In this document: positions 1 to 40,100 of the stretch, one piece after another
Layout: each line of letters opens with the position of its first letter
How positions within the stretch are numbered: the stretch's first letter is position 1
NCBI RefSeq assembly: GCF_023612255.1
Contig: NZ_CP063231.1
Location: forward strand, 1,470,001 to 1,534,000
Direction of reading: 5' to 3'
DNA length: 64,000 nt
From: Luteibacter flocculans
GTDB taxonomy: Bacteria; Pseudomonadota; Gammaproteobacteria; Xanthomonadales; Rhodanobacteraceae
Notes under the pieces: generated by a model
The model's database searches: none
Told to the model about the DNA's origin: nothing
Seen by the model: the letters and a program-made list of their open reading frames with translations, nothing else
Program-made: the position numbers and the translations under genes

Positions 1-3000
1 GTGGTGGAGGCGTACGAAGCGACCGCGATGGCGTTGCCGGACGGTCCGGTGGTGCTGGTGTTGTCCGGCCGTACCGCGGAGGCCCTGCGTGGTCGGGTGA
101 GCGACCTGCTGACCTACCTGGAAGACCGCCCGGCGGCCCTGGCCTCGGTGGCGTGGACGCTGCAGATCGGTCGTGAGGCGATGAACGAGCGGCTGGCCTG
201 CGTGGCCGCAGACGTGCCGGGTGCGATCGCGCAGTTGCGCGCGTACCTGGAAGGCGAAGAGATCGAAGGCCTGTTCGCCGGTCAGGCGCAGCAGCATCGG
301 GAATCGGTGGCATGGTTTGCCGAAGACGCGGAGCTGCGTGAAGCGGTGGCGCGCTGGGCGAGTGCGGGACGGTTGGAACGTGTGGCGCAGGCCTGGGTGC
401 GTGGGGTGGAGATTCCCTGGTCAGCGCTGCATGGCGGCCGGACACTGCCGAAGACCAGCCTGCCGACATACCCGTTTGCCCGCGAGCGCTATTGGTTGGA
501 CCTGCCAAAGGCCGATATCGCACCGGGGGCATCGCGGCTGCATCCGTTGTTGCACGAGAACGTATCGGATCTGCGTGGGCAGCGTTTCCGCTCGCGCTTT
601 GGCGAGGCGATCGGTGCGTGGGACGTGCTGGAAATGGCACGTGCCGCAGCCGTACGTGCGCTGGGTGTGGACGATGCCACACCGTTGGGTCTGTACGACG
701 TGGCGTGGTTCGATACGCCGCGTCACGACGACGTGCTCGACGTGCAGGTGTGGCAGGACGACGACGGTGATGTCGTGCTTCAGGTGGTTCGCGCGGATGC
801 CGATGCGTTGCTGATGCAGGGCGCGGTGCGCCTCGCGAACGACGACGTGGTGGCGAATGAGCCATCGCCAGACGACGTCCGCGTGTCCCTTGCACCTTTG
901 CCAAACGCTGCTTCGTCCAATGCAGGCATCGTGCTGGGCGAGGCGCTGCTCGACGCCCTATTGGGTGCCGATGGCGAAACACATGCTGTGCTTACGCTCG
1001 ACACGGTACACATTCGTGCAAATGTGTCCGCGGGCGGAGTGGTGCACATACACCGTCGCGTTGGCGAGGGTGGCCTGATTGAATTCGATGCCGACGTTCG
1101 CGATGCGCGAGGCCACGTCGCGATCGTGTTGCGCGGTTTGGTGGCAGAGCGCAAGCAGGATGGCGGCACCGCGTCCCGTGACTTGCCGACGATCGATGGC
1201 TGCATCTTCGATGAACCGACGTCCGGCGTGATCCGTATTGCATTGGCGTCGGCGCAGTCATGGGACGCCGCGCTGGCCGCACTGGACGGCGTCGAGGACG
1301 TGAAGGCGGTGGTGCTGACAACGACGGCCCACGACAGCGACACCTCGCTGCCCGCCGATGCGTTTGCTGCCACGACGACCCGTTTGCGCAACGCGGCGTA
1401 TCCCGTTATCGCAGCATGCCTGGGCGACGCGATCGGCGCGTCATGGTGGCTGGCGTTGTCGTGCGATGCATTGGTGGTGTCGTCGGAGGGCCATTACGGT
1501 CTGGACGAGGCGTCGTGGAGTCTGGCGGGTGCGGTGCGTCGGCGGACGGGTGTGGTCGATGTCGCGGTGCGCCCCGGTGCCGCCTGGCAGGCGGCGGGTT
1601 GGAGCGGTCGCGTCGTGCCCGCGGCGCAGGTGGACGAGGAAGCGCTGTCGCTGGCTCGTGCGCTGGCCGAGAAGCCGGCCGACGCGCTGCGTCTGCTCAA
1701 GGCGCACCTGTGGCGTGGCGAGATGGACGCGCCTTTCGAGGTGTCCGCAGCCGTGGCCGATGCGCCGGCACTGGTCCGCGTGGATGCCCGCGAGGTGTCG
1801 GCGGTGCGCCGACAGCTAGACGAAGCGATCGCGCGTGGCGCGTCGTCGGTGGTGCTGTGGAGCGAGGTGGCGCCGTTCGAGGACGGCGTGGAAGCCAACG
1901 CCATCGCCTCGCTGTGCGCATGGCTGGCTGAGGCGCCGGTGCCCGTCGTGGCGGCATTGGGCGGCGATGCGCAGGGCGCGGCGTGGTTGGGCCTGCTTGC
2001 ATGCGACGAGGTCGTGCACGCCGCCGAAGGCTGGTACGGCGCCCAAGGCGTGCTCGATGCCACGCCGTTGTCGGGGTGGGCGGGTGTGTGCCTGCCGTTG
2101 CATCTGGGGCATGAGGGCCGTCGGGCATTGCTGGACGGCGAGAGTCGCCAGGGTCGCGCGTGGCGTGGTGCGCAGGTGGCGAACGCGGGCGACGTATTGT
2201 CGCGAGCCCAAGCCCTCGCCCGTCGCTGGGCCGGTCAACCGGCCGCGGTACTTTCGGCCTGGCGCCAGGCACGTCGGGTTCCCTCGGTGGTCTGGGAATC
2301 GACGAGCGAAGCGCTGCCAGCGGCCGGTCCGATCACGTTGTCGAACGCGGTGGTGAAGGCCACGGCGCAGGCCGATGGCGTGCTGCTGATCGAGCTGTGC
2401 GATCGCGACGCTCGCAACATGTTCTCCGAGGCGCTGGTCCGTGGCGTGGAGGAAGCCTTCGCGCATGCGGCGAGCCAGCCGTACCGCGCGGTGGTGGTGA
2501 CCGGTTACGACACGTATTTCGCTTCGGGCGGTACGCGCGAGAGCCTGCTGGCGATCCAGTCGGGGCAGGCCCGGTTTACCGACTTCACGATCTTCCGTCT
2601 GCCGATGAGCTGTCCGGTGCCGGTGATCGCGGCGATGCAAGGCCACGGCATCGGAGCAGGCTGGTCGCTGGGTCTGTTTGCGGACCTGGGGTTCTACGCG
2701 GAAGAAGCGCGTTACGTCAGCCCGTACATGGATTACGGCTTCACGCCGGGCGCGGGCGCGACCTTGATGGCGCCGGCACGACTGGGTCAGGCGCTGGGTC
2801 GGGAAAGCCTGCTGAGCGCGCGCGAATACACGGGTCGTGCGCTGGGCGAGCGTGGCGTGGGCGAGGCGGTGCTGCCGCGCGCCGAGGTGTTGCCGGCGGC
2901 ACTGGCGTTGGCGTCGCGGATGGCGCGGCACCCGCGGCATCGACTGGTCGGGCTCAAGCAACTGTGGAACGTTGGCCTGGCAAACCGCGTCGACGACGTC

Positions 3001-6000
3001 ATCGCGCGCGAACTGGAAATGCATGCGCGCACGTTTGTCGGCAATGCGGCGACCTCGCGGCGTATCGAAGGACGGTTTGGTCAGGCCGGAAGCGACAAGG
3101 TGCAGGCCACCGTCACGCCGACGCAGCGACCCTCGCCGCAGTCCGTCAAGGACACCCTGCGGCGCCTGCTTGCCACCGAGTTGCAGCTCGACGCCGATCG
3201 CATCGCTGACGATGCACCTTTCATCGATCTTGGCCTCGACTCCATCAGTGGCGTGAACTGGGTGCGCCGGATCAACGAGGCTTACGGGCTGGCTGTCGAA
3301 GCCACTCGCGTCTACAGCCATCCCACCATCGGTCAGCTGGCCGCTCACGTCAGCGCCAGTCTTCCCGAACCCGTGGCGTTGCAGGCACCGGTCACGCCCG
3401 ATCCCGCGGAAACCACGCCCGCACCCGCCGTCACGACGCGCCGCTTGCCGGCGCCGCGCCGTCGTCCGCAAGGCGCGCCGGTCGTGCGTCGCACGGCGGA
3501 GCCGGAAGCAATCGCGGTCATCGGCATGGCGGGGCGCTTCCCGCAAGCGAACGATCTCGATGCGTTCTGGCGCAACCTGGCGGAAGGGCGCGACTGCATC
3601 GACGAAGTGCCGGCCTCGCGCTGGTCGGTGGATCGTTACTACCGTGCCGGCGCGGCGGAGCCGGGTCATACCAACAGCCGCTGGATGGGCGCGCTGGACG
3701 GTCACGATCAGTTCGATCCGCTGTTCTTCAGCATCTCGCCGAAGGAAGCGGAGCACATGGACCCGCAGCAGCGTCTGTTCCTGCAGACCTGCTGGCATGC
3801 GTTCGAAGACGCGGCCTATGGTCCGCGCAGTCTTGCGGGCACACGCTGCGGCGTGTTTGTCGGTTGTGCGGGTGGCGACTATCAACACCTGACGTCGGAC
3901 CAGCGCCTGACGGCGACGGGCTTCACGGGTAACGCGAATTCGATTCTTGCCGGTCGCGTGGCCTACCTGCTCGACCTGCAAGGCCCCTGTCTATCGATCG
4001 ACACGGCATGTTCGTCCTCGCTGGTGGCGATGTCGCATGCGTGCGAGAGCCTGGTCAACGGTACGGCGGACATGGCCCTGGCTGGCGGTGTGTACGTGAT
4101 GGTCGGGCCGGACATGCACATCAAGACGGCGCAGGCCGGCATGCTGTCCACCGACGGGCGCTGCTTCGCCTTCGACGCCCGTGCCAACGGCTTCGTGCCG
4201 GGCGAGGGTGTCGGTGCCGTGGTGCTCAAGCGCCTGGCCGACGCCGAGCGCGATGGCGATCGCATCCACGGCGTGATCCGCGGTTGGGGCGTGAACCAGG
4301 ACGGGCGTACCAATGGCATCACCGCACCGAACCCGGTCGCGCAGCAGCGCTTGCAACGGGGCGTGTACGAACGCTTTGCGATCGACCCGGCACAGATCCA
4401 GTTGATCGAAGCGCACGGCACGGGGACCAAGCTGGGCGATCCGATCGAGGTGCAGGCGCTCAAGGACAGCTTTGCCGCGTACACGCGGCGGGAAGGCTAC
4501 TGCGCCTTGGGCTCGGTCAAGAGCAACATCGGGCACACGCTGACGGCGGCGGGTGTGGCCGGATTCCTGAAGCTGCTGCTGGCCCTGCGACATCGTCAGT
4601 TGCCCCCGACCGCCCAGTTCGAGCGCTTGAACGAGCACATTGCCCTGGAAGGCAGCCCGTTCTTCGTCAACGCGCAGCTGACGCCGTGGATGGTGGGGGA
4701 GGGCGAGCGTCGCCGTGCGGCGCTGAACTCGTTCGGCTTCAGCGGCACGAATGCGCATCTGGTGGTGGAGGAATACGACGCACCGGTGGTGGCCTCGCCC
4801 AAGGGCGAGGCCCTGTGTGTGCTCTCGGCACGCACGCCCGAGGCGCTGCGCACGTTGGCCACGGCGCTTGCCGAGCGGCTGGAGCGCGACGGTTCGGACT
4901 GGCTGGACCTTGCGTACACCTTGCAGGTTGGCCGTGAGGCCATGGAAGAACGGTTGGCGTTCGTGGCGGACGATGCGGCCACGGCCGCAGCACGACTGCG
5001 TGGCTGGTTGGCTGGTGAGCGCGGTGGCGTGCACGTGGGCCAGGCGGGTCGGCAGCGCGAAGCGGTGGCGATGTTCGCTGGCGACGAGGATCTGCGGCGC
5101 ACGGCGGACGGCTGGTTGCGCGAGGGGCGTCTGGAGAAGCTGGGCGAATGGTGGGTGCGCGGTCTGGACCACGACTGGGCGCAACTGCATCGCGAGCGCA
5201 CGCCTCGCCGTGTCGATGTGCCGTTGTATCCGTTCGCCAAGGAAACCTATTGGGTCGATGGTGCGAACAGCGCGGTTCCGGCGCATTTCGGCACGGCGCA
5301 TCCGCTCGTGCACGAGAACGTCTCCAATCTGGATGTCGCCCGCTATCGCTGCCACGTGGCCGCGGTGAAGGGCGGCGTCGATGCCGCGACGGTGCTGGCA
5401 TTCGTGCGTGCCGCCGTCGCCCGTGCACAGGAACGAGCGGACGAGGCATCGGTGGTGCTGGAAGACGTGGCCTGGGAACGCAACCCGGATGCCGCGGTTT
5501 CCTACACTGTCAGCCTGTGGCCGGACGAAGCCGGCGTCGCCTTTGAAGTGACGGCGGACGACGACGAGGCCATCATCGTGCATGGCCTTGCCGTTATGGA
5601 TGAGAGCGCAGGCGAAGACCAGGCAAGCCGCGTCGTGTCGGAGATCGTGTCGAATGAGGCGCCCAGTACGCTGTGGAAGAGCGGCGTCGTATGGTCCCGC
5701 GACATCGGTGGGGCACGCGTGTCTCGTCTTGATACGCGCCAGAAGCCTCGTTTCGCGCTGGCGGCCGCGGCCGATATGGCGAGCGGTGAGAGTGCGTCGT
5801 TGGCACGCCCGCGCTTCACGCTCGGCGCACCGGATGCTTTCCAACCTGGCAGCGTCAACGCTGTCGCGGGCAGCTTGCGTATCACTGACATCGCACCTGC
5901 GGTGTGGACGCTGCACGTCACGATGGACGACGTGGGCTCGGTCGCGGCCTGGGCGTCTGCCGTGAGCGACGCGTGCGAGGTTATCGCCAAGGGCGACCTG

Positions 6001-9000
6001 CGCGCGCTGATCGTGATGGTCGACGGCGCGTCGGCAGCGGACGTCTCCGCGGCGTCCGTCTGGATGGCGTTCGTGAGGAACCTTCGTGACATGCCCGTGC
6101 CTGTGGTCGCTGCCGTGCGCGACGCGATCGGCGCGTCGTGGTGGCTGGCGTTGTCGTGCGATGCATTGGTGGTGTCGTCGGGGGGCCATTACGGTCTGGA
6201 TGAAGGTTCATGGAGTCTGGCCGGTGCGGTGCGTCGGCGGACGGGTGTGGTCGATGTCGCGGTGCGCCCCGGTGCCGCCTGGCAGGCGGCGGGTTGGAGC
6301 GGTCGCGTCGTGCCCGCGGCGCAGGTGGACGAGGAAGCGCTGTCGCTGGCTCGTGCGCTGGCCGAGAAGCCGGCCGACGCGCTGCGTCTGCTCAAGGCGC
6401 ACCTGTGGCGTGGCGAGATGGACGCGCCTTTCGAGGTGTCCGCAGCCGTGGCCGATGCGCCGGCACTGGTCCGCGTGGATGCCCGCGAGGTGTCGGCGGT
6501 GCGCCGACAGCTAGACGAAGCGATCGCGCGTGGCGCGTCGTCGGTGGTGCTGTGGAGCGAGGTGGCGCCGTTCGAGGACGGCGTGGAAGCCAACGCCATC
6601 GCCTCGCTGTGCGCATGGCTGGCTGAGGCGCCGGTGCCCGTCGTGGCGGCATTGGGCGGCGATGCGCAGGGCGCGGCGTGGTTGGGCCTGCTTGCATGCG
6701 ACGAGGTCGTGCACGCCGCCGAAGGCTGGTACGGCGCCCAAGGCGTGCTCGATGCCACGCCGTTGTCGGGGTGGGCGGGTGTGTGCCTGCCGTTGCATCT
6801 GGGGCATGAGGGCCGTCGGGCATTGCTGGACGGCGAGAGTCGCCAGGGTCGCGCGTGGCGTGGTGCGCAGGTGGCGAACGCGGGCGACGTATTGTCGCGA
6901 GCCCAAGCCCTCGCCCGTCGCTGGGCCGGTCAACCGGCCGCGGTACTTTCGGCCTGGCGCCAGGCACGTCGGGTTCCCTCGGTGGTCTGGGAATCGACGA
7001 GCGAAGCGCTGCCAGCGGCCGGTCCGATCACGTTGTCGAACGCGGTGGTGAAGGCCACGGCGCAGGCCGATGGCGTGCTGCTGATCGAGCTGTGCGATCG
7101 CGACGCTCGCAACATGTTCTCCGAGGCGCTGGTCCGTGGCGTGGAGGAAGCCTTCGCGCATGCGGCGAGCCAGCCGTACCGCGCGGTGGTGGTGACCGGT
7201 TACGACACGTATTTCGCTTCGGGCGGTACGCGCGAGAGCCTGCTGGCGATCCAGTCGGGGCAGGCCCGGTTTACCGACTTCACGATCTTCCGTCTGCCGA
7301 TGAGCTGTCCGGTGCCGGTGATCGCGGCGATGCAAGGCCACGGCATCGGAGCAGGCTGGTCGCTGGGTCTGTTTGCGGACCTGGGGTTCTACGCGGAAGA
7401 AGCGCGTTACGTCAGCCCGTACATGGATTACGGCTTCACGCCGGGCGCGGGCGCGACCTTGATGGCGCCGGCACGACTGGGTCAGGCGCTGGGTCGGGAA
7501 AGCCTGCTGAGCGCGCGCGAATACACGGGTCGTGCGCTGGGCGAGCGTGGCGTGGGCGAGGCGGTGCTGCCGCGCGCCGAGGTGTTGCCGGCGGCACTGG
7601 CGTTGGCGTCGCGGATGGCGCGGCACCCGCGGCATCGACTGGTCGGGCTCAAGGCGTTGTGGAACGTGGGGCTGGCCGAACGGGTGGACGAGACCTTCGC
7701 GTGCGAGCTGGACATGCACGACAAGACCTTCGTGGGTCGCGACGATACGTCCCGTTTCATCCAGGCGCGTTTCGAAGCCCTGGCGAAGACGCCAGCACCG
7801 AAACCTGCCGCGTCGAAACCCCTGCCCGCCGCCGCACCCATGGCCTCACCGACGAAGGTGGCGGTGCGTTCGCCCGATGCGGTCGCTGCAAAGCTTCGCC
7901 AGGGGCTCGATATCGAGCTGCATCTGCAAGGCCGGCCGATCGACGACGACATGGAGTTCATCCAGCTCGGCCTGGACTCGATCAGCGGTGTGACCTGGGT
8001 GCGGCGGATCAACGAGGACTTCGGCACCGCGATCGAAGCGACGGCGATCTACAGCTACCCGACGATCCGGCAACTCGCGGCCTATATCGCGTCGCTGTTG
8101 CCGTCCGAGTCGGTCATGGAGGAAACCGCACGGAGCGAGGCACCCGCCGCCACGCCCGCGCCATCGCGACCCGCGCTGCGCCGACGCGTGACGTCGCGTC
8201 AACGGCAGGCTTCGCCAGCGCAGGCGATGGACCGCATTGCCATCATTGGCATGTCAGGCCGCTATGCCGGTGCGGACGATCTCGACGCGTTCTGGCAACA
8301 GATCGTTGAAGGTCGCGATGCGATCCGTGAGATACCCGCGTCGCGCTGGGCTATCGACGATTTCTACGACCCGAACCCCGAGGCGCCCGATCGCATGATG
8401 TCGCGCTGGCTGGGCGCGATGGACGACGTCGATTGTTTCGACACGTTGTTCTTCCGCATCTCGCCCGACGAAGCGGAGCAGATGGACCCGCAGCACCGTC
8501 TGTTCCTGCAAGAGGCGTATCACGCCTTCGAAGACGCCGGCTATACGAGTCGTGCGTTGAGCCGTTCGCGCTGTGGCGTGTACCTTGGCATCTCGACGAA
8601 CGACTACGCCTTGCTGCTCGCACGCAGTGGCGTGGTCTCCGCACCGGTCACGGCCAACAGCTACTCGATCGCCGCGGCCCGCATCGCCTACCACCTCAAT
8701 CTCAACGGTCCGGCGATCTCGGTCGATACCGCCTGTTCGTCGTCATTGGTGTCATTGCATCTCGCCTGCCAGGCGCTGCGTACCGGGGAGGTGGACATGG
8801 CCCTTGCGGGCGGAGTGAGCCTCTGGCTGGCTCCGGAATCGTATCTCGCACTCAGCCAGGCGGGTATGTTGTCGCCGAGCGGTCGCTGCAAGGCGTTCGA
8901 TGACAGCGCGGACGGCATCGTCATGGGCGACGGCGTCGGTGCGCTCGTGCTCAAGCGACTGGCGGATGCGGAGCGCGATGGCGACCGTATTCTTGGCGTC

Positions 9001-22100: not shown

Positions 22101-22631
22101 GATACCTTGCCGCGTTACGACCTGCGCTCGTTGCGCAGCCGTGCACATCCCCTGTCGCGTGCGGCCATGGATGCGAGTCTCGGATGCCACGGCATGGCAC
22201 CTGCGCATGCAGGCATCGATGCGTTGTGGATGAGCGGCGCTTTCGCCCTGGCACGCATCGTCATGTCGGCCGACGACCGCGGGGCCGACGAACGTTTCGT
22301 TATGCAGCCGTCGTTGTTTGGCGCGATTGCGGACACGGTGACCGCGTGGGTGGATCGCGACGATCCTTCCGCCGACGTGGAGATCGCCGGCATCCGTGAA
22401 CTTGGCCTCTATCGCGGCCTGCCGCGGCAGTGCCACGTGCTGGTCGAACGCGCCGAGGGTGAGCCGGCATCGATCCATGCGAGCGTGCTGGATGAGCAAG
22501 GCGGCGTCATCGCAACGCTACGCGGTATCACATTGAAACTCCGGTCGCGCACGCCGCCAAGCGGCAGTTCGCAATCCAACCAACGCCTGGCAAAGGAGAC
22601 GCAGGATGTGCGGTATCGCGGGATGGCTTGA
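10107..22631 (+). CDS. trans-AT polyketide synthase, DH-KR*-ACP / KS-DH-KR-ACP / KS-KR-ACP / KS-DH*
   Basis: About 4174 residues. ATG 10107 is chosen because AAAGGGA lies 6 bp upstream; in-frame ATG 10083 overlapping the previous stop is the alternative. Approximate layout: docking helices 1-32; DH 37-318 (His69, Asp239 in DGALQ); relic KR 342-530 without a nucleotide-binding motif; ACP, Ser576; KS 663-1092 (Cys836, His971, His1010); DH 1267-1547 (His1299, Asp1469); KR 1550-1960 (TGGLGGIG, Ser1853, Tyr1866); ACP, Ser2022; KS, Cys2272; KR (TGGLGGLG, Tyr3066); ACP, Ser3217; KS, Cys3462; C-terminal DH-like domain 3877-4145 lacking both catalytic residues. There is no AT, no TE and no ACP after the last KS. 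Both intact KRs have Asp in the LDD-like region, consistent with B-type (D-hydroxyl) reduction. The 3' end overlaps the amidotransferase gene by 26 bp. Confidence 0.95.
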   Translation: MVSFIEFVVSEWKGRRLSRADAAELIRQFSSRRQGERSLHPLLHENVSDLARQAFRSTWRGNEPFLLDHQVLLGGSPTPVLPAAAYLELAYAALLRATPEDARRPVIELRHAAWIAPFVAKGVSSLLVTVSPDDHGAFDVDMLSGEGDAVQVHGELSAAWVERELPEAIDVDALSATMPTAIDVSRLYARFAAMGLLYGPSHRTIATLSRGDSDALARLIRCDDMGGGGAFAMPPGMLDGALQACFALIDDVSEPHLPFAVEQVSVLAPLPPEVWAWVRPGRTSSDAGVRHFDVDLLDDEGRSLVLLRGLSARALHGASKGRRAPPRLAVADAGGTWRALDEAARAGECLWREHASYLVFDVIEGPGRAIADDILSRTRHARVIGFGSGEANSERTAEFITRAQGRASWHQDIPDRAAMSSLTTSLHPLRGVVACDGSLAESVLADIDAATATADLDFFVAGASEDAANGSFTGFVTQRRAQVEGGDRRGATIALSWTVLDPAELPAALVAALVSGAAQVRLLPRVAAEPAPVVTDGADVLARLRDHLRREFAQTLKLRVERIDPRASLEDYGVDSIVAMKLTRRIEASFGPQPKTLLFEYRDLDALATHLAAAHPEALARLFGGAKAATPVITQVAAARAQPRAARARQRFGAPRTTARETADAQPIAIVGISGRYPGARDLNAFWANLRDGIDSVVEVPADRWDWREYYSEDRTAAGRHFSRWGGFIEGVDEFDPLFFRMSPTEAQRIDPQERLFLQHAWMAIEDAGYTRAALSAGGDVGVYVGMMYSEYQLFAAEASVRGQRLGVAGSFASTANRVSFALDLHGPSMTLDTMCSSSLTAIHLACQDLRLGRTAMAIAGGVNVTIHPNKYLALSAGQFISSEGHCQSFGEGGDGYIPGEGVGAVVLKRLADAERDGDVIHGVIRGSALNHGGRTNGYTVPNPQAQAAAIERALSEAGVDVRRIGYVEAHGTGTRLGDPIEIAALSRAFGPAAEKGGCLIGSAKSNIGHCEAAAGIAGLTKVLLQMRHGQVVPSLHSARLNPHIDFASSPFTVNQTLRAWEAPVVEGRRAPRMAGLSSFGAGGSNAHMVVEAYEATAMALPEGPVVLVLSGRTAEALRGRVTDLLTYLEDRPAALASVAWTLQIGREAMNERLACVAADVPGAIAQLRAYLEGEETEGLFAGQAQQHRDAVAWFAEDAELRDAVARWASAGRLERVAQAWVRGVEIPWSALHGGRTLPKTSLPTYPFARERYWLDLPKADIAPGASRLHPLLHENVSDLGRQAFRSTFRGDESFLRAHRYKRGGVTRPLMPAAAWIGMAHAAIERAMPAEARVGAQLVALEDMVWAEPLFVDGEVDVDIGLSLGDAGEVDVAIASVDGDAIRSHARLRARLANGALDGLDLPALKARMTDSDADVETLYARFEAMGLIYGPEHRTLRHVARGADELLVQLDSGHGLPGEHSLAPELIDGALQSCIALLDSAEGAWLPFAARRIVVAAPCAGEMVAWVRRLAEDDATQQRFDIDIVDRHGRPCVRIEGLAVRRVPDDASVDSVVAFVPSWSAPLADTSEVTNGREHWCVIAPSDLAETFAESLGATSVERLDVPASDDAEGLLAHILVTVQRLAAMDSPPALRVACLAGVDDACVAALAGLLATAGMEHPELSPCVIDVRTAGRVFAAAAVAARAGHVHVRIDADGSWRHRTWTEQAVETKASVNIRRGGVYLVTGGLGGIGRLVARDLASAGAQVVVTGRAAPDAVHAEATAALSVAPGDVLYRQLDLENAHDVRRLVASILAEQGRLDGVLHLAGATDDGPLAGKTRDEFKALLRPKVSGTRHLDDATRDVALDMFVLFSSVAGAFGNVGQADYAAANGYMDGFAAERARRVVAGERHGRSVSIGWPLWAEGGMRPDAHRLDMLARTTGMRALDSERALAVLHAVIASDAPHVAVLGGDVARLRRTVAALTREAAPKAAPLPASTTASEISATAQGRAEDVLRVRLAATLKMPASSIDPATPFEDYGLDSILAVRLVSELEKTFGELSKTLFYEHRTLRSLASFLLAAKPSAFPSAEAGAARPVAAPSPMVATALSGRRFAGIASPAAPRERDVAIVGLAGRYPMAPDLVTFWNNLREGRDCITDVPPDRWDVARYFDAEPGKPGTTYTRWGGFLDEIDRFDPLFFGISPKEAALLDPQERLFLETAWQAVEDAGYARSAIAGSRTGVFVGVMWGQYELYGAEALAAGQGVPSSSYASIANRVSWLLDLRGPSMAVDTMCSSSLTALHLACEEIRRGKIDAAIAGGVNANVHPHKYLTLSQGRFAATDGRCRSFGAGGDGYVPGEGVGAVFLKPLDHALRDGDHVYGIVRASALNHGGKSSGYTVPNPVAQAEVIEAAFTSAGVAADTVSYIEAHGTGTALGDPIEITGLARAFAARGGSSKGCAVGSVKSNIGHLEAAAGIAAVTKVLLQLRHGELVPTLHADVLNPNIAFASTPFQVQRRAEVWHADAQQPRRAGVSSFGAGGGNAHVVIEEWRDTVSPATAEGPVALVLSARDPVALAQQARRLATFLDDAADGEMHDIAYTLQVGRTAMDARLGLVAADRRDAAMRLHAWADARFATPDAPLSSGDDGLIAGHASQIPPYAQRLVEGEVGRRFVGELVARRDLARLVHLWVLGIALDWTPLHSDRRPRRLSLPTYPFQRQRCWIGPEKADDGAGLPAASGRLLRHWAETSRLASASVSSVLVADTDAAIAAVANMQPAPGRIVRLQDRHADIDAMRVFVQRLATSGGVPTHVLWRATDERDDALALMLLVRAMLEAGQAATLVAIVDEGAPLQEALAGLLRTLALEQPSWRTVTLTMAAGVSATADERTRLALDEAAAATAPTAEVRYTRHGSDGSWQRALRVARVEPGVGEASLLSPIRHGGTYLVTGGLGGLGRIVASDLMRRCQARVMLVGRSSLGQEGERELARMAAEGGEVAYASIDVSDPAAVEALLDQVRQRFGALHGVIHAAGTRRDGALLQKDADAFRDVTRAKIDGTLALDAATRHLDLDLFVLFSSMAGVNGNPGQADYAYANRFLDAFAAQREAWRDQGLCNGRTISIAWPLWEHGGMRVDAAQAQRLLRRNGIAALSTTEGLRHFHAALRAGEHVVVPLHGDLARLAHATATPHAPSAAVTPQAHVPLAPVASFDMLARVRELVAEETGVPMAAITESDRFDALGLDSVAIGRLTARLRGIAGDVPQTLFYEQETVGAAAAYLVRHAPQHTMATAVAAPSHVVMLPAARNDDAQEKIAIVGIHGRFPGGADLDAFWQTLESGREAIVPVPASRWDAEAWYDASPDAAARGRIGCRHGGFIPDVDHFDAAFFRIPADEAAVMDPQERLFVESVWHALEDAGYTRQGLRQAYPRDKGANVGVFVGTTTQSYALLAESARRDGVMQTPTSLPWSIANRVSYLFDFRGPSMPVDTACSSALVGLHLASESLRRGECAVAVAGAVNLYLHPLKYLSLSQRGMLARHGATRSFGAGDDGFVPGEGVATVILKRLSDALADGDRIHGVLAATGFEHAGRGNGYAAPNPNAQASLIRRVLAAGQIDPDSIDCVEGHGTGTPLGDEIELRALEQVLGGSATRTAPASLGCVKSNIGHLEAAAGMSSLAKVLLQMRHGRFVPTLHARTDAPAAAVVLQHAGSHWPAPAQRPRRALINAFGAGGVNACIVLEDPPPSPASKAFDERRTHAFLLSAVDEDRLRAYAAAFAHWMTNASEPLGAICEAVSRREAMSVRLAVSGVAAADVARELAAWVEGSPSRVQVASVNARAATAAPAEGAVPDQAEAVIAAWLAGAWVPRVRGRAALPVGMPGYPFAPTSHWIARSAPLPDVATVPSVEERLHPWVSYNASTLRQTAFDSWLRADEVAPLTTLRDDVPVLSMPALLEIAAACGTLAGERRVATLRDVAFPDMLTLERDLHLVRTVLEYEGDGIRFRIGDGPGDTSRCFASGMLLPTTVEPADTLPRYDLRSLRSRAHPLSRAAMDASLGCHGMAPAHAGIDALWMSGAFALARIVMSADDRGADERFVMQPSLFGAIADTVTAWVDRDDPSADVEIAGIRELGLYRGLPRQCHVLVERAEGEPASIHASVLDEQGGVIATLRGITLKLRSRTPPSGSSQSNQRLAKETQDVRYRGMA
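13374..13943 (+). repeat. Diverged direct repeat of the KS-DH linker at 1-570
   Basis: Positions 1-570 and 13374-13943 (offset 13373 bp) share the KS end, post-KS linker and the start of DH. In the first 205 bp I count about nine substitutions, so identity is near 95 percent. Past the [11 protein letters not shown] motif the copies part: the first leads to a degenerate DH, the second to an intact one. The KS upstream of the window is therefore probably a close relative of the KS at about 12093-13380. Confidence 0.85.
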
Positions 22632-24453
22632 TTTCAGCCAGGACATAAGAGACCGGCGGCACATCGTCGAGGCCATGACGGTGACGCTGGCCGCGCGTGG
22701 ACCTGACGGGCAGGGCGTCTGGATGGATAAGCACGTCGGCCTGGGCCATCGTCGCCTGGCCGTGATCGATCTCGCTGGCGGCGTGCAGCCCATGGTGCAC
22801 GATGGCGGCACGGACACCACCGTGGCGCTCAGCTACAACGGGGAGATCTACAATTTCGCCGCTCTGCGCGCGGAGCTGGAGGCCCTTGGCCATCGCTTCA
22901 CGACGCGCTGCGATACGGAGGTCGTACTCCGCGGTTATCTCCAATGGGAGGAGGGCGTGGTCCGCCGACTGGAGGGCATGTTTGCCTTTGCAGTGTGGGA
23001 CGCGCGACGCCAGCAGCTGCTGCTGGCGAGAGACTTTCTGGGCGTCAAGCCGCTCTATTACCAGCGCATCGGCAACGGGGTCGTGTTCGGCTCTGAACCG
23101 AAGGCGTTGTTGGCTCATCCGGACGTACGCGCGCGCACCAACGAGGATGGCCTGCGCGAGATTTTCGTGCTGGCTCGCACGCCGGGGCGGACGCCCTATG
23201 CGGATATCCACGAGGTAAAACCCGGGGAGATGCTGCGCTTCGACCGCGAAGGGATGCGGGCCGATCGCTTCTGGCGTTTCGAGGCACGGCCGCACGAAGA
23301 CGACCTCCCCGCGACCATTGCACGGGTTGGGGAGCTGCTGGAGAGCGCGGTCCGCCAGCAGATAGTCAGCGACGTACCGTTGTGTACGCTTCTTTCGGGC
23401 GGCCTGGATTCGTCCGCCATCACAGCCATTGCGCATGCGGCGACGGCTGCACAAGGGCAGCCGATGCGAACGTTCTCGGTCGACTTCGTCGGTCAGTCCG
23501 ACGACTTTGCGGACGATGGTCCGCACAAGTCGCATGATGCGCCTTTCGTGCGTGACTTCGTTCGTCATGTCGGCTGCGACCATACGGACATCGTGCTGGA
23601 CAGCAGCGAGTTGGCCGAAGGCTCGCTGAATCGCACGGTGCTCCACGCAAGCGACTTGCCGCTGAATCTTTCGGGCGACATGTGCTCCTCGCTCTATCGG
23701 CTGTTCCGGGAGGTCAGGAAGGAATCGACGGTGGCCCTGTCCGGCGAGTCGGCCGACGAGATCTTCGGAGGCTATGCGTGGTTCCATCAGCCCGCCGTGC
23801 ATCAAGCCCGCATGTTCCCGTGGCTCACCATGACCGGCAGCGTGTTTCACGGTGGCGACATCCTGGATCGCGGTCTGCGCGAGCGGCTGCGGCTGAAGGA
23901 GTTCCAGGCAGACAGCTACGCGACTGCGATGGCCGAGGTGCCACGGCTGGATGGGGAGCCGGCACACGATGCCCGCATGCGCGAGTTCTCCTATCTGCAC
24001 ATGTCGCGCTTCCTCCAGTTCATGCTCGATCGGAAGGATCGGATGAGCATGGCGGTAGGCCTCGAAGTGCGTGTGCCATTCTGCGACAGCGCCCTGGTCG
24101 ATTACGTGTTCAACATTCCCTGGGATATGAAAGCGTTCGATGGAAGGGAAAAGAGCGTATTGCGTGCGGCGGTGGAGCAGCGCCTGCCACGATCGATCGT
24201 GGAGCGCACAAAGAGTCCTTACCCGTCGACACAAGACCCTGCGTACGAACGTGCGCTACGCGCCAGAGTGGCTGCGTTTCTCGATACGCCAAATCATCCG
24301 GCGCGTCCCTTGTTCGACGAGCGCACGGTGCGGCGGATGACCACTCGGCCGATGAACGGCGATCGTTCATTGCACTATCAGCGCGCGGACATGGAGCGGG
24401 TGCTCTCGGTCGCCGAGTGGATCGAGGCCTATGACGTCGAACTGGCATGTTGA
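22606..24453 (+). CDS. AsnB-like glutamine-dependent amidotransferase
   Basis: 615 residues, the usual length for class B asparagine synthetases. It begins MCGIAG; Cys2 becomes the N-terminal glutaminase nucleophile. The synthetase half has the ATP pyrophosphatase loop SGGLDSS near residue 265. AAAGGAG sits 7 bp before the ATG, and the gene overlaps the end of the PKS gene by 26 bp, so they are probably co-translated. Known family roles in polyketide clusters are making a malonamate starter (oxytetracycline OxyD, glutarimide pathways) or amidating a carboxylate. The position between PKS and beta-branch genes supports a biosynthetic role, not asparagine supply. The actual substrate cannot be told from sequence. 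Confidence 0.9.
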   Translation: MCGIAGWLDFSQDIRDRRHIVEAMTVTLAARGPDGQGVWMDKHVGLGHRRLAVIDLAGGVQPMVHDGGTDTTVALSYNGEIYNFAALRAELEALGHRFTTRCDTEVVLRGYLQWEEGVVRRLEGMFAFAVWDARRQQLLLARDFLGVKPLYYQRIGNGVVFGSEPKALLAHPDVRARTNEDGLREIFVLARTPGRTPYADIHEVKPGEMLRFDREGMRADRFWRFEARPHEDDLPATIARVGELLESAVRQQIVSDVPLCTLLSGGLDSSAITAIAHAATAAQGQPMRTFSVDFVGQSDDFADDGPHKSHDAPFVRDFVRHVGCDHTDIVLDSSELAEGSLNRTVLHASDLPLNLSGDMCSSLYRLFREVRKESTVALSGESADEIFGGYAWFHQPAVHQARMFPWLTMTGSVFHGGDILDRGLRERLRLKEFQADSYATAMAEVPRLDGEPAHDARMREFSYLHMSRFLQFMLDRKDRMSMAVGLEVRVPFCDSALVDYVFNIPWDMKAFDGREKSVLRAAVEQRLPRSIVERTKSPYPSTQDPAYERALRARVAAFLDTPNHPARPLFDERTVRRMTTRPMNGDRSLHYQRADMERVLSVAEWIEAYDVELAC

Positions 24454-24491
24454 TGCCATGCAGCATGCGTCGGTATCGGCAAAAATTCGTA

Positions 24492-24520
24492 TTGACGCCG
24501 CATCGCGAATTGATTCTACT
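24492..24520 (+). promoter_or_regulatory. Candidate internal promoter before the beta-branch genes
   Basis: TTGACG at 24492-24497, a 17-bp spacer and TCTACT at 24515-24520 lie in an unusually A+T-rich stretch (a run of five A just upstream) inside the 181-bp gap between the amidotransferase and hydrolase genes. The -10 box matches only four of six consensus bases. A perfect 6-bp hairpin (CCGGTT, loop CCATG, AACCGG) follows at 24538-24554 without a T tract. A second promoter driving the hydrolase-HCS-ACP-AT set is plausible but unproven. Confidence 0.4.
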
Positions 24521-24634
24521 TCGAAGGTCAACGGTTGCCGGTTCCATGAACCGGTGGTGCCCACAGTGGCTAGGGGGAATGCCGCTGCGAAGGAGTCTCG
24601 GTACGGCATGCGCCGTGGCGAAGGGGGGATGGAT

Positions 24635-25351
24635 ATGAGCGGAGACTCGCCCTGTGCGGTCGCGGCGCCTGTCGCGACCAGCCGGACGCGTGTCGTGGTG
24701 CTTCGTACCACGCGTGGCAGCATGACCAACTACAACTACGTCGTCGTCGATGTGGCGACCCGTCAGGCTGTGCTTGTCGATCCGTCCTGGCAGGCGGACG
24801 TGGTCGTCGGCGCGGTGGTCGACGCCGGAGCGCGCGTTGCCGGTATCCTGCTTACCCACTCGCATCCCGATCACATCGACCTCGCAGCGTCGCTGGGCGA
24901 ACGCTTCGGCTGTCCGTTGTGGATGTCGAAGGAAGAGATCGCCTGGTCCGGCTACCATGCCCCCGGACTCGTCGCCATCGACGAGACGCCGTTTCATGTC
25001 GGTTCGATGACGATCCGCCCCATGCTTACGCCTGGGCACACACCCGGATGCATGTGCTACCGCGTGGACGATGATCTGTTCACCGGCGACGTATTGTTTG
25101 CGGAGGGCTGCGGCATCTGCCCCGATGTGGGTGCTGCGCTGCGCATGTACGACAGTCTGGGTCGCATCCGCCGGGAGATCGGCGAAACGACGCGCATCTA
25201 TCCGGGTCACTCGTTTGGACTGGCCCCCGGCCAGTCGTTTGCGACCGTGCAGCGCGAAAACATCTATCTGCAATTCAGCAACAGGGACGACTTCGCCGCC
25301 TTCCGCACGCGGAAGGGGCAGAGTCGCGCGAAGCTCTTCACGTTTCACTAA
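24635..25351 (+). CDS. Metallo-beta-lactamase-fold hydrolase, PksB-like
   Basis: 238 residues from ATG 24635, which has AAGGGGGG 6 bp upstream; in-frame ATGs at 24608 and 24629 fit the ribosome site less well. The zinc-binding signature THSHPDHID is present near residue 80, with further metal ligands in TPGHTPG, TGDVLF and YPGHS, typical of glyoxalase-II-like thioester hydrolases. PksB-type hydrolases accompany many trans-AT clusters next to HMG-synthase cassettes, and a proof-reading or thioester-clearing role is usually inferred. No signal peptide is seen, so it is cytoplasmic. Confidence 0.85.
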   Translation: MSGDSPCAVAAPVATSRTRVVVLRTTRGSMTNYNYVVVDVATRQAVLVDPSWQADVVVGAVVDAGARVAGILLTHSHPDHIDLAASLGERFGCPLWMSKEEIAWSGYHAPGLVAIDETPFHVGSMTIRPMLTPGHTPGCMCYRVDDDLFTGDVLFAEGCGICPDVGAALRMYDSLGRIRREIGETTRIYPGHSFGLAPGQSFATVQRENIYLQFSNRDDFAAFRTRKGQSRAKLFTFH

Positions 25352-25414: not shown

Positions 25415-26671
25415 ATGCGAGCGGTTGGTATCGAAGCAATGAACGTCTACGCGGGCACCGCGTGCGTCGACGTGGAAGCGTTGGCGGGTCATCGGGGACT
25501 GGACATGACCCGGTTCGCCAATCTCCTGATGAAGGAGAAGACAGTGGCGCTGCCGTATGAAGACCCCATCACCTACGGCGTCAACGCCGCGCGTCCGCTC
25601 ATCGATGCGATGACGCCGGAAGAGAAGGACCGGATCGAGGTGGTCATCACGTGTACCGAGTCGGCTTTCGATTTCGGCAAGTCGATGAGTACCTATTTTC
25701 ACAAGCTGCTTGGCCTGAACCGCAACTGCCGGCTCTTCGAACTGAAGAACGCGTGCTATTCGGGCATCGCAGGCCTGCAGACGGCAGCGAACTTCGTGTT
25801 GTCCAGCGTTTCGCCCGGTGCGAAGGTGCTGCTTATCGCAACCGACATTTCCCGTTTCATGACGGAAGCGGGCGGTGAAGGGCTGACCGACGACTGGTCT
25901 TTCTTCGAGCCGAGCAGTGGCGCGGGTGCGGTAGCCGCCATCGTGAGCGACCAACCGCACGTGTTCCGCATCGACGTCGGCGCGAGCGGCTACTACGGCT
26001 ATGAGGTCATGGACACCTGCCGCCCGGCACCGGACAAGGAAGCGGGGGACGCCGATCTTTCGCTGCTCTCGTACCTGGACTGCTGCGAGAAGGCTTTCAT
26101 GGAATACCAGTCGCGCGTGGAAGGTGCGGACCTGGCGAAGACCTTCACCTACCTCGCTATGCACACGCCCTTTGGCGGCATGGTGAAGGGCGCTCATCGC
26201 AACATCATGCGCAAGGTTGCCAAGGCGAAGCCCGCGGACATCGAGGAAGATTTCCAGCGTCGCGTGTCACCCAGCCTGCACTTCAATCAGCGCGTCGGCA
26301 ACACCATGGGAGCGAGCACGCTCATGGCGATCGCGAGCACCATCGAGCACGGCAACTTCGACGAGCCGCGCCGCATCGGCTGCTTCTCGTACGGTTCCGG
26401 GTGCTGTTCCGAGTTCTTCAGTGGCGTGGTGACCCGCGAAGGGCAGGAGCGGGTGCGTGCCCAGGGTATCGGCAGCCAGCTCGGTCGACGCCATACACTG
26501 AAAATGGACGAGTACGACGAATTGCTGGCCACCAGCCACCTGGTGAAGTTCGGCACGCGCAACGCATCGCTCGACCCCTCCTTCGTGGCCACGGCCCGCG
26601 GCGTTCATGGCCGCGAGACGCTGTTCCTGAAGGAGATCAAGGAATTTCACCGCGAATACGAATGGGTGTGA
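25415..26671 (+). CDS. Hydroxymethylglutaryl-CoA-synthase-like enzyme for beta-branching (PksG/MupH type)
   Basis: 418 residues. The HMG-synthase family is recognised by the nucleophile context KNACYSG (Cys114), a His in AMHTPFGG near residue 250 and TCTESAFDFGKS near residue 75. In the known pathway it condenses an acetyl group carried on a donor ACP with the beta-ketone of the growing chain on a PKS ACP, and later dehydration (ECH1) and decarboxylation (ECH2) leave a methyl or exomethylene branch. The two ECH2 domains and flagged ACPs at 1-8.1 kb are its likely partners. It lies between the PksB-like gene and the donor ACP gene, both on the same strand and close by, so it is probably in one operon. 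Confidence 0.93.
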   Translation: MRAVGIEAMNVYAGTACVDVEALAGHRGLDMTRFANLLMKEKTVALPYEDPITYGVNAARPLIDAMTPEEKDRIEVVITCTESAFDFGKSMSTYFHKLLGLNRNCRLFELKNACYSGIAGLQTAANFVLSSVSPGAKVLLIATDISRFMTEAGGEGLTDDWSFFEPSSGAGAVAAIVSDQPHVFRIDVGASGYYGYEVMDTCRPAPDKEAGDADLSLLSYLDCCEKAFMEYQSRVEGADLAKTFTYLAMHTPFGGMVKGAHRNIMRKVAKAKPADIEEDFQRRVSPSLHFNQRVGNTMGASTLMAIASTIEHGNFDEPRRIGCFSYGSGCCSEFFSGVVTREGQERVRAQGIGSQLGRRHTLKMDEYDELLATSHLVKFGTRNASLDPSFVATARGVHGRETLFLKEIKEFHREYEWV

Positions 26672-26969: not shown

Positions 26970-28124
<1,155 letters not shown>

Positions 28125-30777: not shown

Positions 30778-30806
30778 AGCCCCGATGCATGGTCGGGGCT
30801 TCTCTT
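30778..30806 (+). terminator. Intrinsic terminator-like hairpin after the permease gene
   Basis: AGCCCCGA (30778-30785) and TCGGGGCT (30793-30800) form a perfect 8-bp stem with a 7-base loop, followed by the T-rich TCTCTT. It lies 34 bp after the permease stop and 14 bp before the next ribosome site. The weak T tract suggests partial read-through, attenuating the NRPS half relative to the PKS half. Confidence 0.6.
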
Positions 30807-30820
30807 CAAGGGGAGTGACA

Positions 30821-31543
30821 ATGCAGAAGCGTAGGAATCTTGCCCGGCGTATCGGGAAGGGACTGTTGATTCTCGTGGGCGTGCTGTTCGTGGGCGCGGC
30901 ATGCGCCCACCTGGCGTGGAAATACTCGGGCGACGACACACCCAAGCTGGTCATCGACAAACAGGGTATCCAGGTTTACACCATCAAGACGCCCGGGCAG
31001 TCGTTGCTAAAGATCAAGGCGGTGCGTGTCGTCAAGAGCACCCTGGACCGCGCCGCCGCAGCGCACCTCGATGGGAGCCTCGAGAATTGCCACGACTGGA
31101 TTCCCGATTGCTACGAATCGTTGGCAGTCAAGCACTGGGATCCGCAGGCAAGAAACTACGTTCAGTTGTGGAAAGAGAAATTTCCGGAGCCTTTCTCGCC
31201 GCGCGAGTTCCTGCTCAATACGCAGTTCACGCAGGCTGCTCCCGGTCAGCCGATCACGGTCGAGTTCACGGCTGCTCCCGATGCGGCGCCCAAGAGCGAT
31301 TGCTGCTATCGGTTGACCCATATGCATGCGGTTTGGACGCTCGATCCGATCGACCAGGATGACGTCCGTGTCACCCTCATGCAGGACATCGACGTGGGGC
31401 TTCCGTACTTCCTGTTCAACGACGAAGCGCCTCGCGCGGTGTACGGCGCCTTCGAGGATCTTCCGCGGCTTTACGCGAAGACGAAGTACGACACCGTGTC
31501 CCTGCAGACGATTTATGGCGGCCAGCCGATCGTCGCCGAGTAA
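30821..31543 (+). CDS. START-like (SRPBCC) protein with N-terminal membrane helix
   Basis: 240 residues from ATG 30821, with AAGGGG about 10 bp upstream. Residues about 12-32 are one hydrophobic helix after a basic start, so the rest lies in the periplasm, either anchored or cleaved. Residues 45-235 resemble bacterial START lipid-binding domains: a W-I-P-D-C segment, the strand RNYVQLWKEKFPEPFSPREF like the family's P-x-P-x-S-x-R-D-F region, and MHAVWTLDPIDQDDVRVTLM followed by a C-terminal helix. A hydrophobic-ligand pocket is the family hallmark. Here it could hold a product or lipid in the periplasm, in line with the neighbouring exporter. The assignment is by motif shape only. Confidence 0.6.
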   Translation: MQKRRNLARRIGKGLLILVGVLFVGAACAHLAWKYSGDDTPKLVIDKQGIQVYTIKTPGQSLLKIKAVRVVKSTLDRAAAAHLDGSLENCHDWIPDCYESLAVKHWDPQARNYVQLWKEKFPEPFSPREFLLNTQFTQAAPGQPITVEFTAAPDAAPKSDCCYRLTHMHAVWTLDPIDQDDVRVTLMQDIDVGLPYFLFNDEAPRAVYGAFEDLPRLYAKTKYDTVSLQTIYGGQPIVAE

Positions 31544-37180: not shown

Positions 37181-40100
37181 ATGACGACGGTGCACGCGTT
37201 ATTGAAGAACCTCGCCGATCGCGGCGTGCGAGTGCGGCTGGATGGTGAGCGCCTTGTCTGCCTGGCGTTGCCGGGTTCGTTCACGACGGATATCGGGTCC
37301 GCCGTAAACACCCATCGCGACGAAATTGTGGCGATCATGAAGCGCGTGAGGGCGCGCGGCGGGCGCATTCCGCGCGCCGATCGGCACGGCGTGATTCCCC
37401 TGAGCCATGCGCAGGAGCGACTCTGGTTCATCGATCAGCTCGATCCGGATTCGGCCGGCTATAGCATCGCCGGTGCCGTACGGATCGCCGCATCGCTCGA
37501 TGCGGAAGTCTTCGCTGTGGCGCTCGCCAAGCTGGTTCAGCGCCACGAGATCCTGCGTACGGTATTCGCGAGCGACGAGGGCACGCCACGGCAGTGCATC
37601 ATGCCGCGCATGGACGTGCCATTGGCTGTGCACGACCTGACCGACGTGCCCCCCTCGTCACGCGTGGAGGCGTGCCGCCGTCTCTGCGCCGCCGAAGCCG
37701 GCGTGCCGTTCGATCTCACCTGCGGACCGTTGTTCCGCGCCACGATTTTCCGGCTCGGTGAGAGCGATCACGTCGTTCTGCTGAACATGCATCACATTGT
37801 GGGCGATGGGTGGTCGATCCCGATTCTCGTCGACGAACTTGCGGCTCTCATGACACGTGGGGACGACGCGCTTTCGCCGTTGCCCATCCAGTACGCCGAC
37901 TATGCAGCGTGGCAGCGCAACCAGCATGGGGGCGGCACGCATTTCAATCCTAATCTGGACTACTGGCGCGACACACTACGCGGTGTTCCAGAGACCCTCG
38001 CGCTGCCAACGGACGGCACCGTGCCCACGACCGCAACGGCACCCGGCGGCACCCATCGCTTCCGGCTCGATGCGCTGGTCACCGCGGGTTTGAGCCGCCT
38101 GGCGCGCGACGCCGACGCGACGCCTTTCATGGCCTGGATCGCCACAGTGGCGGTGTTGCTGCATCGTTACGCGGGACAGCACGATTTCTGTATTGGCACG
38201 CCCGTCGCCAACCGCGGCCATGCAGACACGGCCGGGCTGATCGGTTTGTTCGTCAACACGCTGCCATTACGCATGCGCTTGCAGAGCGGCGTCACGTTCC
38301 ACGACCTCCTGCGTCAGGTGCGCGAGACCTGTCTCGAGGCTTATGCGCGACAGGACACGCCATTCGAGCAGATCGTCGCCGCCGTCGCGACGCAGCGAAA
38401 TCTCGCGGCTACACCGCTGTTCCGGGTGATGGTGGCGATGCAGGAGGAAACGCCGTCGCTTGCGGCATGGGGCTCCGAGCCGTTGACTTTCGAGACGGGC
38501 ATTGCCAAGTTCGACCTGAGCTTCGACTTGACCACGGTCAACGGCGGCACGGATGTCGTCGTGGAATTCAATGCGGCCATGTTCGCGCGGTCGCGTATCG
38601 AGCGCATGGCGAAGCATCTTGCCGCGCTGGTCGCGGCGCTGGTAGCACGGCCGGACGTTCCTGTTGCCGAGCAGGATTACCTGGGCCGAGAGCGGCATCG
38701 GCTGCTGACGGAATTCAATGAGACGGACGCGCCGATCGACCCGGCCGAGCGCGCACACGACGCCATTGTGGCGCAGGCCGTACGCACGCCTGCGGTCGTG
38801 GCGTTGCGCAGCGCGTTCGGCGACCTGACCTACGACGGGCTACTGCGCGCAGCGGCAATCACGGCGCGCCAGATCCGCGAGGGCGGCGCCCTGCCGGGGC
38901 AGATCGTCGGGCTGTGCGTAGATCGCACGCCCGCCATGGTCTCCGGTCTGCTGGGTATCTTGCTTGCCGGATGCGCTTTCCTGCCACTCGATCCGCGGCA
39001 CCCACCCGGGCGTCTGGCACAGACGCTGACCGATGCGGGCGCGTCGCTTGTGGTCGCCGACCCGCACGGCCTGGCTTGGCTCGAAGGCGAAGCGCTGCCG
39101 CCAGTGATCGCTCTGGGCGCCTGGGAAGACATGGTCGAACAAGTGGCCGTAGCCGATGGTCTCGACGCGCTGCTCGCCGCACTCGGTGCCGGCCCGGCGC
39201 CGGACGATCTGGCCTATGTGATCTTCACGTCGGGGTCGACAGGCCGGCCCAAGGGCGTGGCCGTCGAACACCGCTCGCTGGTCAACCACAATCGCTTTGC
39301 CTGCCGTTACTACGGCTTTGCGAACGACGACGTGCAGCTCATGGTCTCCAGCATGGGTTTCGACCTGTACCTGGAAGAAGTGCTCGTCGTTCTCCGCGCC
39401 GGCGGTACGCTCGTGCTCACCGATCGCGAGCAGGTCCTTACTCCTGGCGGCATCGGCGTCCTCGCGCAGCAGCACGGCCTTACGGCACTGAATCTACCGA
39501 CCGCGCTGTTCCACGAACTGGTGTCGAGCGGCAGCCCCTTGCCGACGTTGCGCCGCGTGATCGTCGGTGGCGAACGGCTCGATCCGGCCAAGGTGGATGC
39601 GTTCTTCAAGGCCATGCCTTCGGCGACGCTGTTCAATACCTATGGTCCGACCGAGACGACCATCATCAGTACCGCGGCGCGTCTCACCGCCGAAGCCTGG
39701 AACGTGGAAGCCGGTGCACCCATCGGTCGACCGATCGATAACACGCATGCCTACGTCCTTGATGCGGGGCAGCGACTTGTGCCCATCGGCGTGGCCGGCG
39801 AACTGTATATCGGTGGCCACGGCGTAGCGCGTGGCTACCTCGGCCAGGACGAGCTTACGCGCGAGCGCTTCGTGTCGGACCCGTTCGGTAGCGGAGGACG
39901 GTTGTATCGCACCGGCGACCTTGTGCGCTGGCGTGAGGACGGCCAGATCGACTATCTCGGGCGCGTGGATCACCAGGTCAAGGTGCGCGGCTTCCGGGTG
40001 GAGCCCGGAGAAATCGAAGCGTGTATCGCGTCCCATCCCGACGTCAGTGACGCCATGGTGATCGCGCAAACCCAGGTGGGTGGCGGACGCCTGCTTGCCT

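Follow-up and report, generated by a model that had tools for sequence, protein, structure and literature searches.

Why should a polyketide synthase (PKS) module carry three crotonase-like segments in tandem when only one of them looks capable of catalysis? The question is raised by a trans-acyltransferase (trans-AT) PKS of Luteibacter flocculans, read here from a stretch of 64,000 nucleotides that we call the window (contig NZ_CP063231.1, positions 1,470,001 to 1,534,000; plain coordinates below are window positions, and the home genome is G000). An earlier note on this DNA had proposed three tandem crotonase segments between a dehydratase (DH) relic and an acyl carrier protein (ACP), and had suggested a structural role for the first two, which appeared dead. 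Our analysis indicates that the dead segments, s1 and s2, are conserved and were probably kept as structural partners of the third, s3. The explanation we favour, with some reserve, is that the array constitutes a cis-encoded, asymmetric trimer of the enoyl-CoA hydratase-like (ECH) decarboxylase ECH2, composed of one active and two dead protomers.

Array architecture and loss of catalytic residues

The window opens inside the PKS gene, whose open reading frame (ORF) starts upstream at approximately G000:C1:1466878 and ends at position 10086. Two of its modules, A and B, carry arrays in the order ketosynthase (KS), dead DH, three crotonase segments and ACP, all on the forward strand, and the three segments lie in frame within this ORF in both. 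In module A (array at 1198-3087), the DH-like relic (541-1176; motif at 541-570) contains no HxxxGxxxxP in a motif scan and matches PKS_DH_N below the cut-off (E 1.5e-4). It is followed by s1 (1198-1728), s2 (1753-2274), s3 (2326-3087) and a PP-binding ACP (3151-3351), which bears at 3232-3261 the beta-branching flag GxDSx5W, as quoted in PMC11425284 (hereafter, the W flag). Module B (array at 5872-7785) consists of a DH-like relic with linker (5299-5871; motif at 5299-5328; PKS_DH_N E 0.044, below cut-off), s1 (5872-6423), s2 (6448-6969), s3 (7021-7785) and an ACP in which the motif scan places the W flag at 7969-7998. Searching the home genome with the array recovered a third array module, organised in the same way, in the gene before this one (G000:C1:1461783-1463630, 90% identity); the other matches at E 0.001 in this search were two places with 25-27% identity, and no free PksI-like ECH2 was seen among them.

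The crotonase identity of the three segments is borne out to different degrees by different models. Against Pfam ECH_1, s1 (E 3.7e-12) and s3 (E 2e-40) of module A score above the curated cut-off and s2 (E 0.01) below it; in module B, the tested s1 stretch (E 0.005) and s2 (E 0.011) fall below and s3 (E 8e-41) above. Profiles built from relatives have PksI as their best PDB match for both s1 (E 1.8e-28) and s2 (E 1.6e-18), and by these profiles the two segments are certainly crotonases, an identification based on sequence profiles and predicted secondary structure, with the VIA-align list covering s3 alone (387-630).

As the note had claimed, the first two segments of module A each keep a single motif (GDAIGASW at 1423-1446 in s1; GDAQGAAW at 1963-1986 in s2), and only s3 combines FASGGT (2518-2535) with GHGIGAGW (2641-2664). 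The FASGGT loop and the ELEMH of the catalytic His motif ELEMHART (3010-3033; ELDMHDKT at 7705-7728 in module B) align with PksI and its MH motif, so that s3 has both the first oxyanion loop and the C-terminal catalytic His. With a score of 259 bits against NF005496 (curated cut-off 215), s3 is predicted to be the only PksI/CurF-type ECH2 of the array. The claim that the first oxyanion loop is absent from s1 and s2 holds in the window and can be extended, since the lid loop and the C-terminal catalytic His helix are missing as well, and an MH motif scan of the home genome matched in s3 only. In the wider alignment, the His is aligned in 0 of 15 s1 rows and 0 of 11 s2 rows, these rows being cut after the last core helix; in s3, 13 of 13 rows have the His as well as the first oxyanion and [TS]PGAG loops. 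Loss of the first oxyanion loop in s1 is graded, as it is partly kept in some relatives (FLRGG, FLQGG).

The second oxyanion motif, GxxxGxxW or a near match, persists in most s1 and s2 rows and could be taken as a sign that these segments retain, or have gained, some catalysis of their own, such as isomerase or hydratase activity. We regard this as very improbable, given that in the window both segments lack the first oxyanion loop together with the lid loop and the catalytic helix, and that the genome carries a separate ECH1 gene (G000:C1:1439592-1440380; NF005498, 347 bits, cut-off 250). Identification of s1 or s2 as a PksH-type dehydratase, that is, ECH1, was likewise rejected: the best NCBIfam match of both is the ECH2-type model NF005496, and it is the separate gene that matches NF005498. 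Together with the best PDB matches, this supports descent of s1 and s2 from an ECH2. Nor do any of our results, none of which came from a direct test, point to recruitment of a trans ECH1, one of the roles that the note had suggested.

Conservation of the dead segments across genomes

The note had drawn its structural argument from the retention of the array in two modules, and this part of it is weak. Between the two window copies, identity is 100% over 1601-2900 and 83-94% in the adjoining 100-base blocks, and all three home copies are identical or nearly so over alignment columns 161-700 but differ in the flanks and in the first, N-terminal half of s1. The near-identical stretch measures about 1.5 kb, of which about 1.3 kb is fully identical, and pairs 1421-2950 with 6116-7645 (offset 4695) and with the matching part of G000:C1:1461783-1463630. 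Such shared blocks are, by their pattern of identity, the mark of recent gene conversion or duplication (module homogenisation). Repetition within one genome is therefore not independent evidence of selection; we reject it as proof and count the copies once. Identical PKS blocks of this kind are also a spot where short-read assemblies would collapse.

Comparison with other genomes is more informative. A search for the same three-domain order within the family matched 7 of 233 genomes (the home genome is counted in this and the two wider searches), six of which proved on reading to hold arrays and one, G227, single ECH2s only. Outside the home genome, three-segment arrays were read in G116, which belongs to the same genus, G187 (two), G225 (three), G230 (one, with a second truncated at a contig end) and G224 (one, alongside an array of two segments). 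At the level of the class, 33 of 369 genomes matched, with tandem matches in a PKS only in G429 besides home, and at the level of the phylum, 78 of 398 matched with no further tandem case seen, both as judged from the match tables. Searching the family of G429, which is distinct from that of the window genome, yielded matches in 7 of 24 genomes: the array was read in G429 and G989, G986 is cut by contig ends, and the other four are frames of 263-285 residues. In family f189, the 4 matches among 299 genomes extend over the ECH2 or slightly more and comprise G1005, with one dead ECH, G1024, masked there, and two short frames. Finally, 383 plasmid records matched, none covering 80% of the query in one place, and 13 loci were fetched. 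Loci L077 and L079 (contig ends) and L084 (upstream stretch reading N) were left out of the counts.

Across the 12 three-segment rows there are no stop codons. Among seven arrays, some from the same genome, identity is 27-46% for s1, 27-45% for s2 and 47-71% for s3; the same-genus pair of the window and L007, left out of these ranges, reaches 53%, 75% and 82%, respectively. The ratios of nonsynonymous to synonymous substitution rates (dN/dS, by the method of Nei and Gojobori) for the pairs window-L007, L009-L015 and L010-L013 are 0.50, 0.35 and 0.29 in s1, 0.23, 0.27 and 0.23 in s2, and 0.18, 0.11 and 0.17 in s3 (one s3 pair on 111 codons). Thus, s1 and s2 evolve faster than s3, with ratios in these pairs below 1. 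In a tree of 45 segments, s1, s2 and s3 largely group by position, with two label changes each, which suggests that the array architecture is old. A second tree, of 37 ECH2s, unites the 15 that follow a dead ECH in one clade (support 100/99) together with the unclassed L084; the 15 come from the home family, G429 and G989, an Ensifer plasmid, a Nostoc plasmid and G1005, and their clade adjoins the cis-encoded solo ECH2s L026 and L012. Because arrays occur in other genera, dN/dS is below 1 and one helix of s1 is specifically conserved (see below), s1 and s2 appear to be kept for a non-catalytic role, and to this extent the suggestion of the note stands.

Three side observations concern the arrays of relatives. 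The single-contig genome G224 (L011, L016, L020) lends itself to a natural comparison of the forms, as it contains one array of three segments, one of two segments about 11 kb away, and a free-standing ECH2 besides. The PKS reading frame at L083, in G1005, is reported as 16,659 residues long and has near-identical ACP repeats behind the ECH2. In many arrays, though not in all, the linker from the dead DH to s1 contains one or two copies of a short motif of the kind KPRFAL, RPRIAL or GPTVTLAD (window approximately 5743-5826, L002, L008-L010, L013, L068, L080); the paired form was considered as a docking motif and rejected, as it is missing in module A, L007, L014 and L018.

Structure prediction, the s1 helix and split arrays

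The structure prediction proposed in the note was run with AlphaFold2 on the 637-residue window array and 12 related rows. The mean predicted local distance difference test score (pLDDT) was 83.4 (81.5-83.4 over five models) and the predicted template modelling score (pTM) 0.85, with all three segments placed confidently relative to one another and the same core order of predicted secondary structure in s1, s2 and s3. A flexible string of three domains would not be expected to reach this pTM. Characterised relatives, according to the passages cited, are trimeric: PksH, PksI and CurF form trimers with one site per protomer, and no PksH-PksI heterotrimers were found (PMC7501309); BonH and BonI (PMC12560621) and VirD and VirE (PMC10006238) are trimeric as well. 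From the confident relative placement, the number three and the trimeric state of characterised solo ECH2s and their relatives, we infer an intramolecular trimer.

In such an arrangement, a KS0, the 3-hydroxy-3-methylglutaryl synthase (HMGS) and ECH1 would act in trans on a beta-keto chain held by the W-flag ACP, and s3, as the catalytic protomer, would decarboxylate the glutaconyl beta-branch intermediate in cis on this adjacent ACP. The decayed ECH2 copies s1 and s2, which keep the crotonase core and the last core helices and have no active site, would fill the other two places of the trimer, so that each PKS chain would carry its own three-part unit. The C-terminal helix of s1 (LKAHL) may take over an inter-protomer contact that s3 itself no longer supplies; trimeric geometry, s1-to-s3 contact and reaction order are all to be read as predictions.

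The distribution of this helix bears on the contact. LRLLKAHL (1687-1710 in module A, 6382-6405 in module B) lies in the best conserved element of s1: over the 8 of 12 rows used, helix 168-179 has a mean conservation of 0.86, versus 0.43-0.71 for the other s1 elements, and the same helix reaches 0.56 in s2 and 0.60 in s3. Its K-x-H signature is found in 16 of 18 s1 segments and 0 of 14 s2 segments (each count with the three near-identical home copies), and in none of 15 array ECH2s versus 15 of 22 solo ECH2s, three ECH2 rows having no class. Both PksI (LKDHL) and CurF (LKQHL) carry it. The pattern thus lends support, short of proof, to a helix that s1 donates. The idea of a universal K-x-H in solo ECH2s was rejected as sampling grew, the count passing from 12/12 to 14/19 with seven plasmid loci and to 15/22 after adding L092, L093 and L096.

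Several observations weigh against the trimer or against the retention of its dead members. The pTM indicates that the segments are placed, not how, and the pseudo-threefold arrangement goes one step beyond it; the missing C-terminal helices of s1 and s2 could also weaken a canonical trimer interface. K-x-H is absent from the s1 of L025 and L080 and from seven solo ECH2s (L088, L089, L091, L092, L093, L094, L095), and the 22 solo ECH2s include five close relatives from one family. Since the array ECH2s form one clade, the loss of K-x-H in s3 may be a single ancestral event. In the 45-segment tree, L025_s1, L068_s1 and L068_s2 stand outside the position groups and several branches are long. Higher dN/dS values are seen in two distant pairs, L009-L018 from the same genome (s1 0.70, s2 0.83, s3 0.40) and L008-L009 (s1 0.47, s2 0.61, s3 0.37). 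Finally, L016, L024, L025 and L083 are two-segment arrays with one dead ECH and an ECH2; to accommodate them, a strict three-in-one model has to assume either that s2 was lost or that chains share trimers.

The faster evolution of s1 and s2, nearly relaxed in the two distant pairs, the missing s2 in those four arrays and the homogenisation that spreads copies within the home genome would all fit a history in which the dead segments are remnants of tandem duplication under neutral decay, tolerated in the chain as linkers. We consider such a history improbable in view of the dN/dS of 0.23-0.50 in closer pairs, the 12 rows free of stop codons, the near-invariant s1 helix and the confident packing by AlphaFold2. 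Moreover, G1005, with a genome of 0.5 Mb, still has a dead ECH ahead of its ECH2 (E 3e-15), which by this match survives genome reduction.

In G429 and G989, the array is distributed over two polypeptides, s1 on one and s2-s3 on the other. The frame bearing s1 (in G429 also a KS) closes with a stop codon, TGA in one genome and TAG in the other, at different places, and 73 and 123 bases past the stop the conserved sequence GAGGGA(C/A)AAAATG opens a frame with s2, s3 and two ACPs; this start codon is the one we infer, G989 having earlier in-frame ATGs. An assembly error is unlikely because the stop codons differ and further stops lie in between. If the two parts work together, they must meet non-covalently. 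Extending the trimer reading, we tentatively envisage, as a scenario that could well prove wrong, that tandem triplication turned a trimeric PKS enzyme into a single-chain trimer, that two protomers lost catalysis, that the LKxH helix of s1 completes the only active site, on s3, and that one lineage severed the chain between s1 and s2, with trimer formation doubling as subunit docking between PKS polypeptides.

Known systems and the beta-branching context

Modular PKS chains are generally dimers, and the ECH2 of CurF is a single cis domain. PksI of the bacillaene system occurs as a free homotrimer in which every protomer has a site, whereas the window array fuses one active-looking domain to two dead relatives. 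There is a close likeness with lasonolide, where the ECHa-ECHb pairs of LasH and LasO place a truncated ECH, devoid of oxyanion residues, immediately before the ECH2 of a beta-branch module (PMC9600693), and with DipP, PsyA and PKS4 of the pederin family, in which motif regions of an ECH (ECH1) are deleted, much as in s1 and s2 (PMC6855096). These systems have one dead ECH and, in the passages cited, no trimer reading is given; all three home array modules have two, directly upstream of a cis ECH2. A truncated ECH before ECH2 has thus already been published, and the two dead copies are the unusual part. The two ECH domains in one beta-branch module of OnnB (onnamide) differ again, as PMC6855096 describes the first of them as an ECH1 whose motifs are conserved, whereas s1 and s2 match the ECH2 model best. 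In the open-licence literature, judged on titles, abstract starts and passages, we recognised no description of three ECH domains in one PKS module, of the split form or of the helix pattern.

The same literature lends some substance to another role for s1 and s2, as scaffolds or gates without catalysis: they might offer a docking site to the ACP or to the trans-acting cassette (ECH1, HMGS), or control the regiochemistry (exo-methylene versus endo-methyl), and would form no trimer with s3. According to a passage of PMC9600693, a truncated ECH is common ahead of ECH2 where an exo-beta-methylene is formed, and the ACPs behind the arrays carry the W flag in 3 of 3 modules versus 0 of 7 for the other ACP motifs that a pattern search picked up in the four PKS genes (three further pattern hits, two of them at KS starts, were not counted as ACP serine motifs). 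Likewise, the ECHQ of Art21 (aurantinin), an ECH2 homologue in which Gln replaces the catalytic His, is important in vivo and redirects the assembly line instead of decarboxylating; it is fused to a thioesterase and, unlike the segments in the window array, not in tandem with an active ECH2 (PMC11425284, in the passages cited). However, conservation in s1 peaks not on a new surface but in a C-terminal core helix that has its match in homotrimeric ECH2s, and an endo-methyl branch is predicted from one such module in PMC9600693 itself. On balance, we regard the scaffold or gate as unlikely, though it deserves to be weighed seriously. As a separate observation, the solo ECH2-like proteins L093 and L096, on Azospirillum and Streptomyces plasmids, do not have the MH motif that is usual in the catalytic helix, one having Gln in its place like Art21 ECHQ.

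How cis ECH2 domains cope with the mismatch between the trimeric state of characterised free ECH2s and dimeric PKS chains is not explained in the cited passages, and a single-chain trimer with one active site would, if true, be a simple answer. It would also suggest why dead ECH domains recur before ECH2 in trans-AT PKSs, warn annotators against counting them as active, and imply that engineers may have to move the dead domains along with ECH2. The split form, if it functions as envisaged, would be a docking device of a kind not met in those passages.

The cluster encodes components of an HMGS-type beta-branching cassette. An HMGS homologue lies at 25415-26671 on the forward strand (HMG_CoA_synt_C E 4.5e-17; TIGR01835 E 2e-65, below its cut-off), a cassette-type KS, which presumably decarboxylates, at G000:C1:1438330-1439595 (NF005490, 573 bits, cut-off 445), and the ECH1 gene beside it; W-flag ACPs are present as acceptors. 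A free-standing acyltransferase (26970-28124, forward strand; Acyl_transf_1 E 1.2e-40) would serve the PKS in trans. Between the PKS genes and the HMGS homologue are an asparagine-synthase-like amidotransferase (22606-24453) and a metallo-beta-lactamase-fold protein (24431-25351), and an ORF of 252 residues inside the cluster (30785-31543) has no Pfam or NCBIfam match at the thresholds used. In the nonribosomal peptide synthetase gene at 37181-47686, two condensation-adenylation stretches are, by eye, near identical over several hundred residues.

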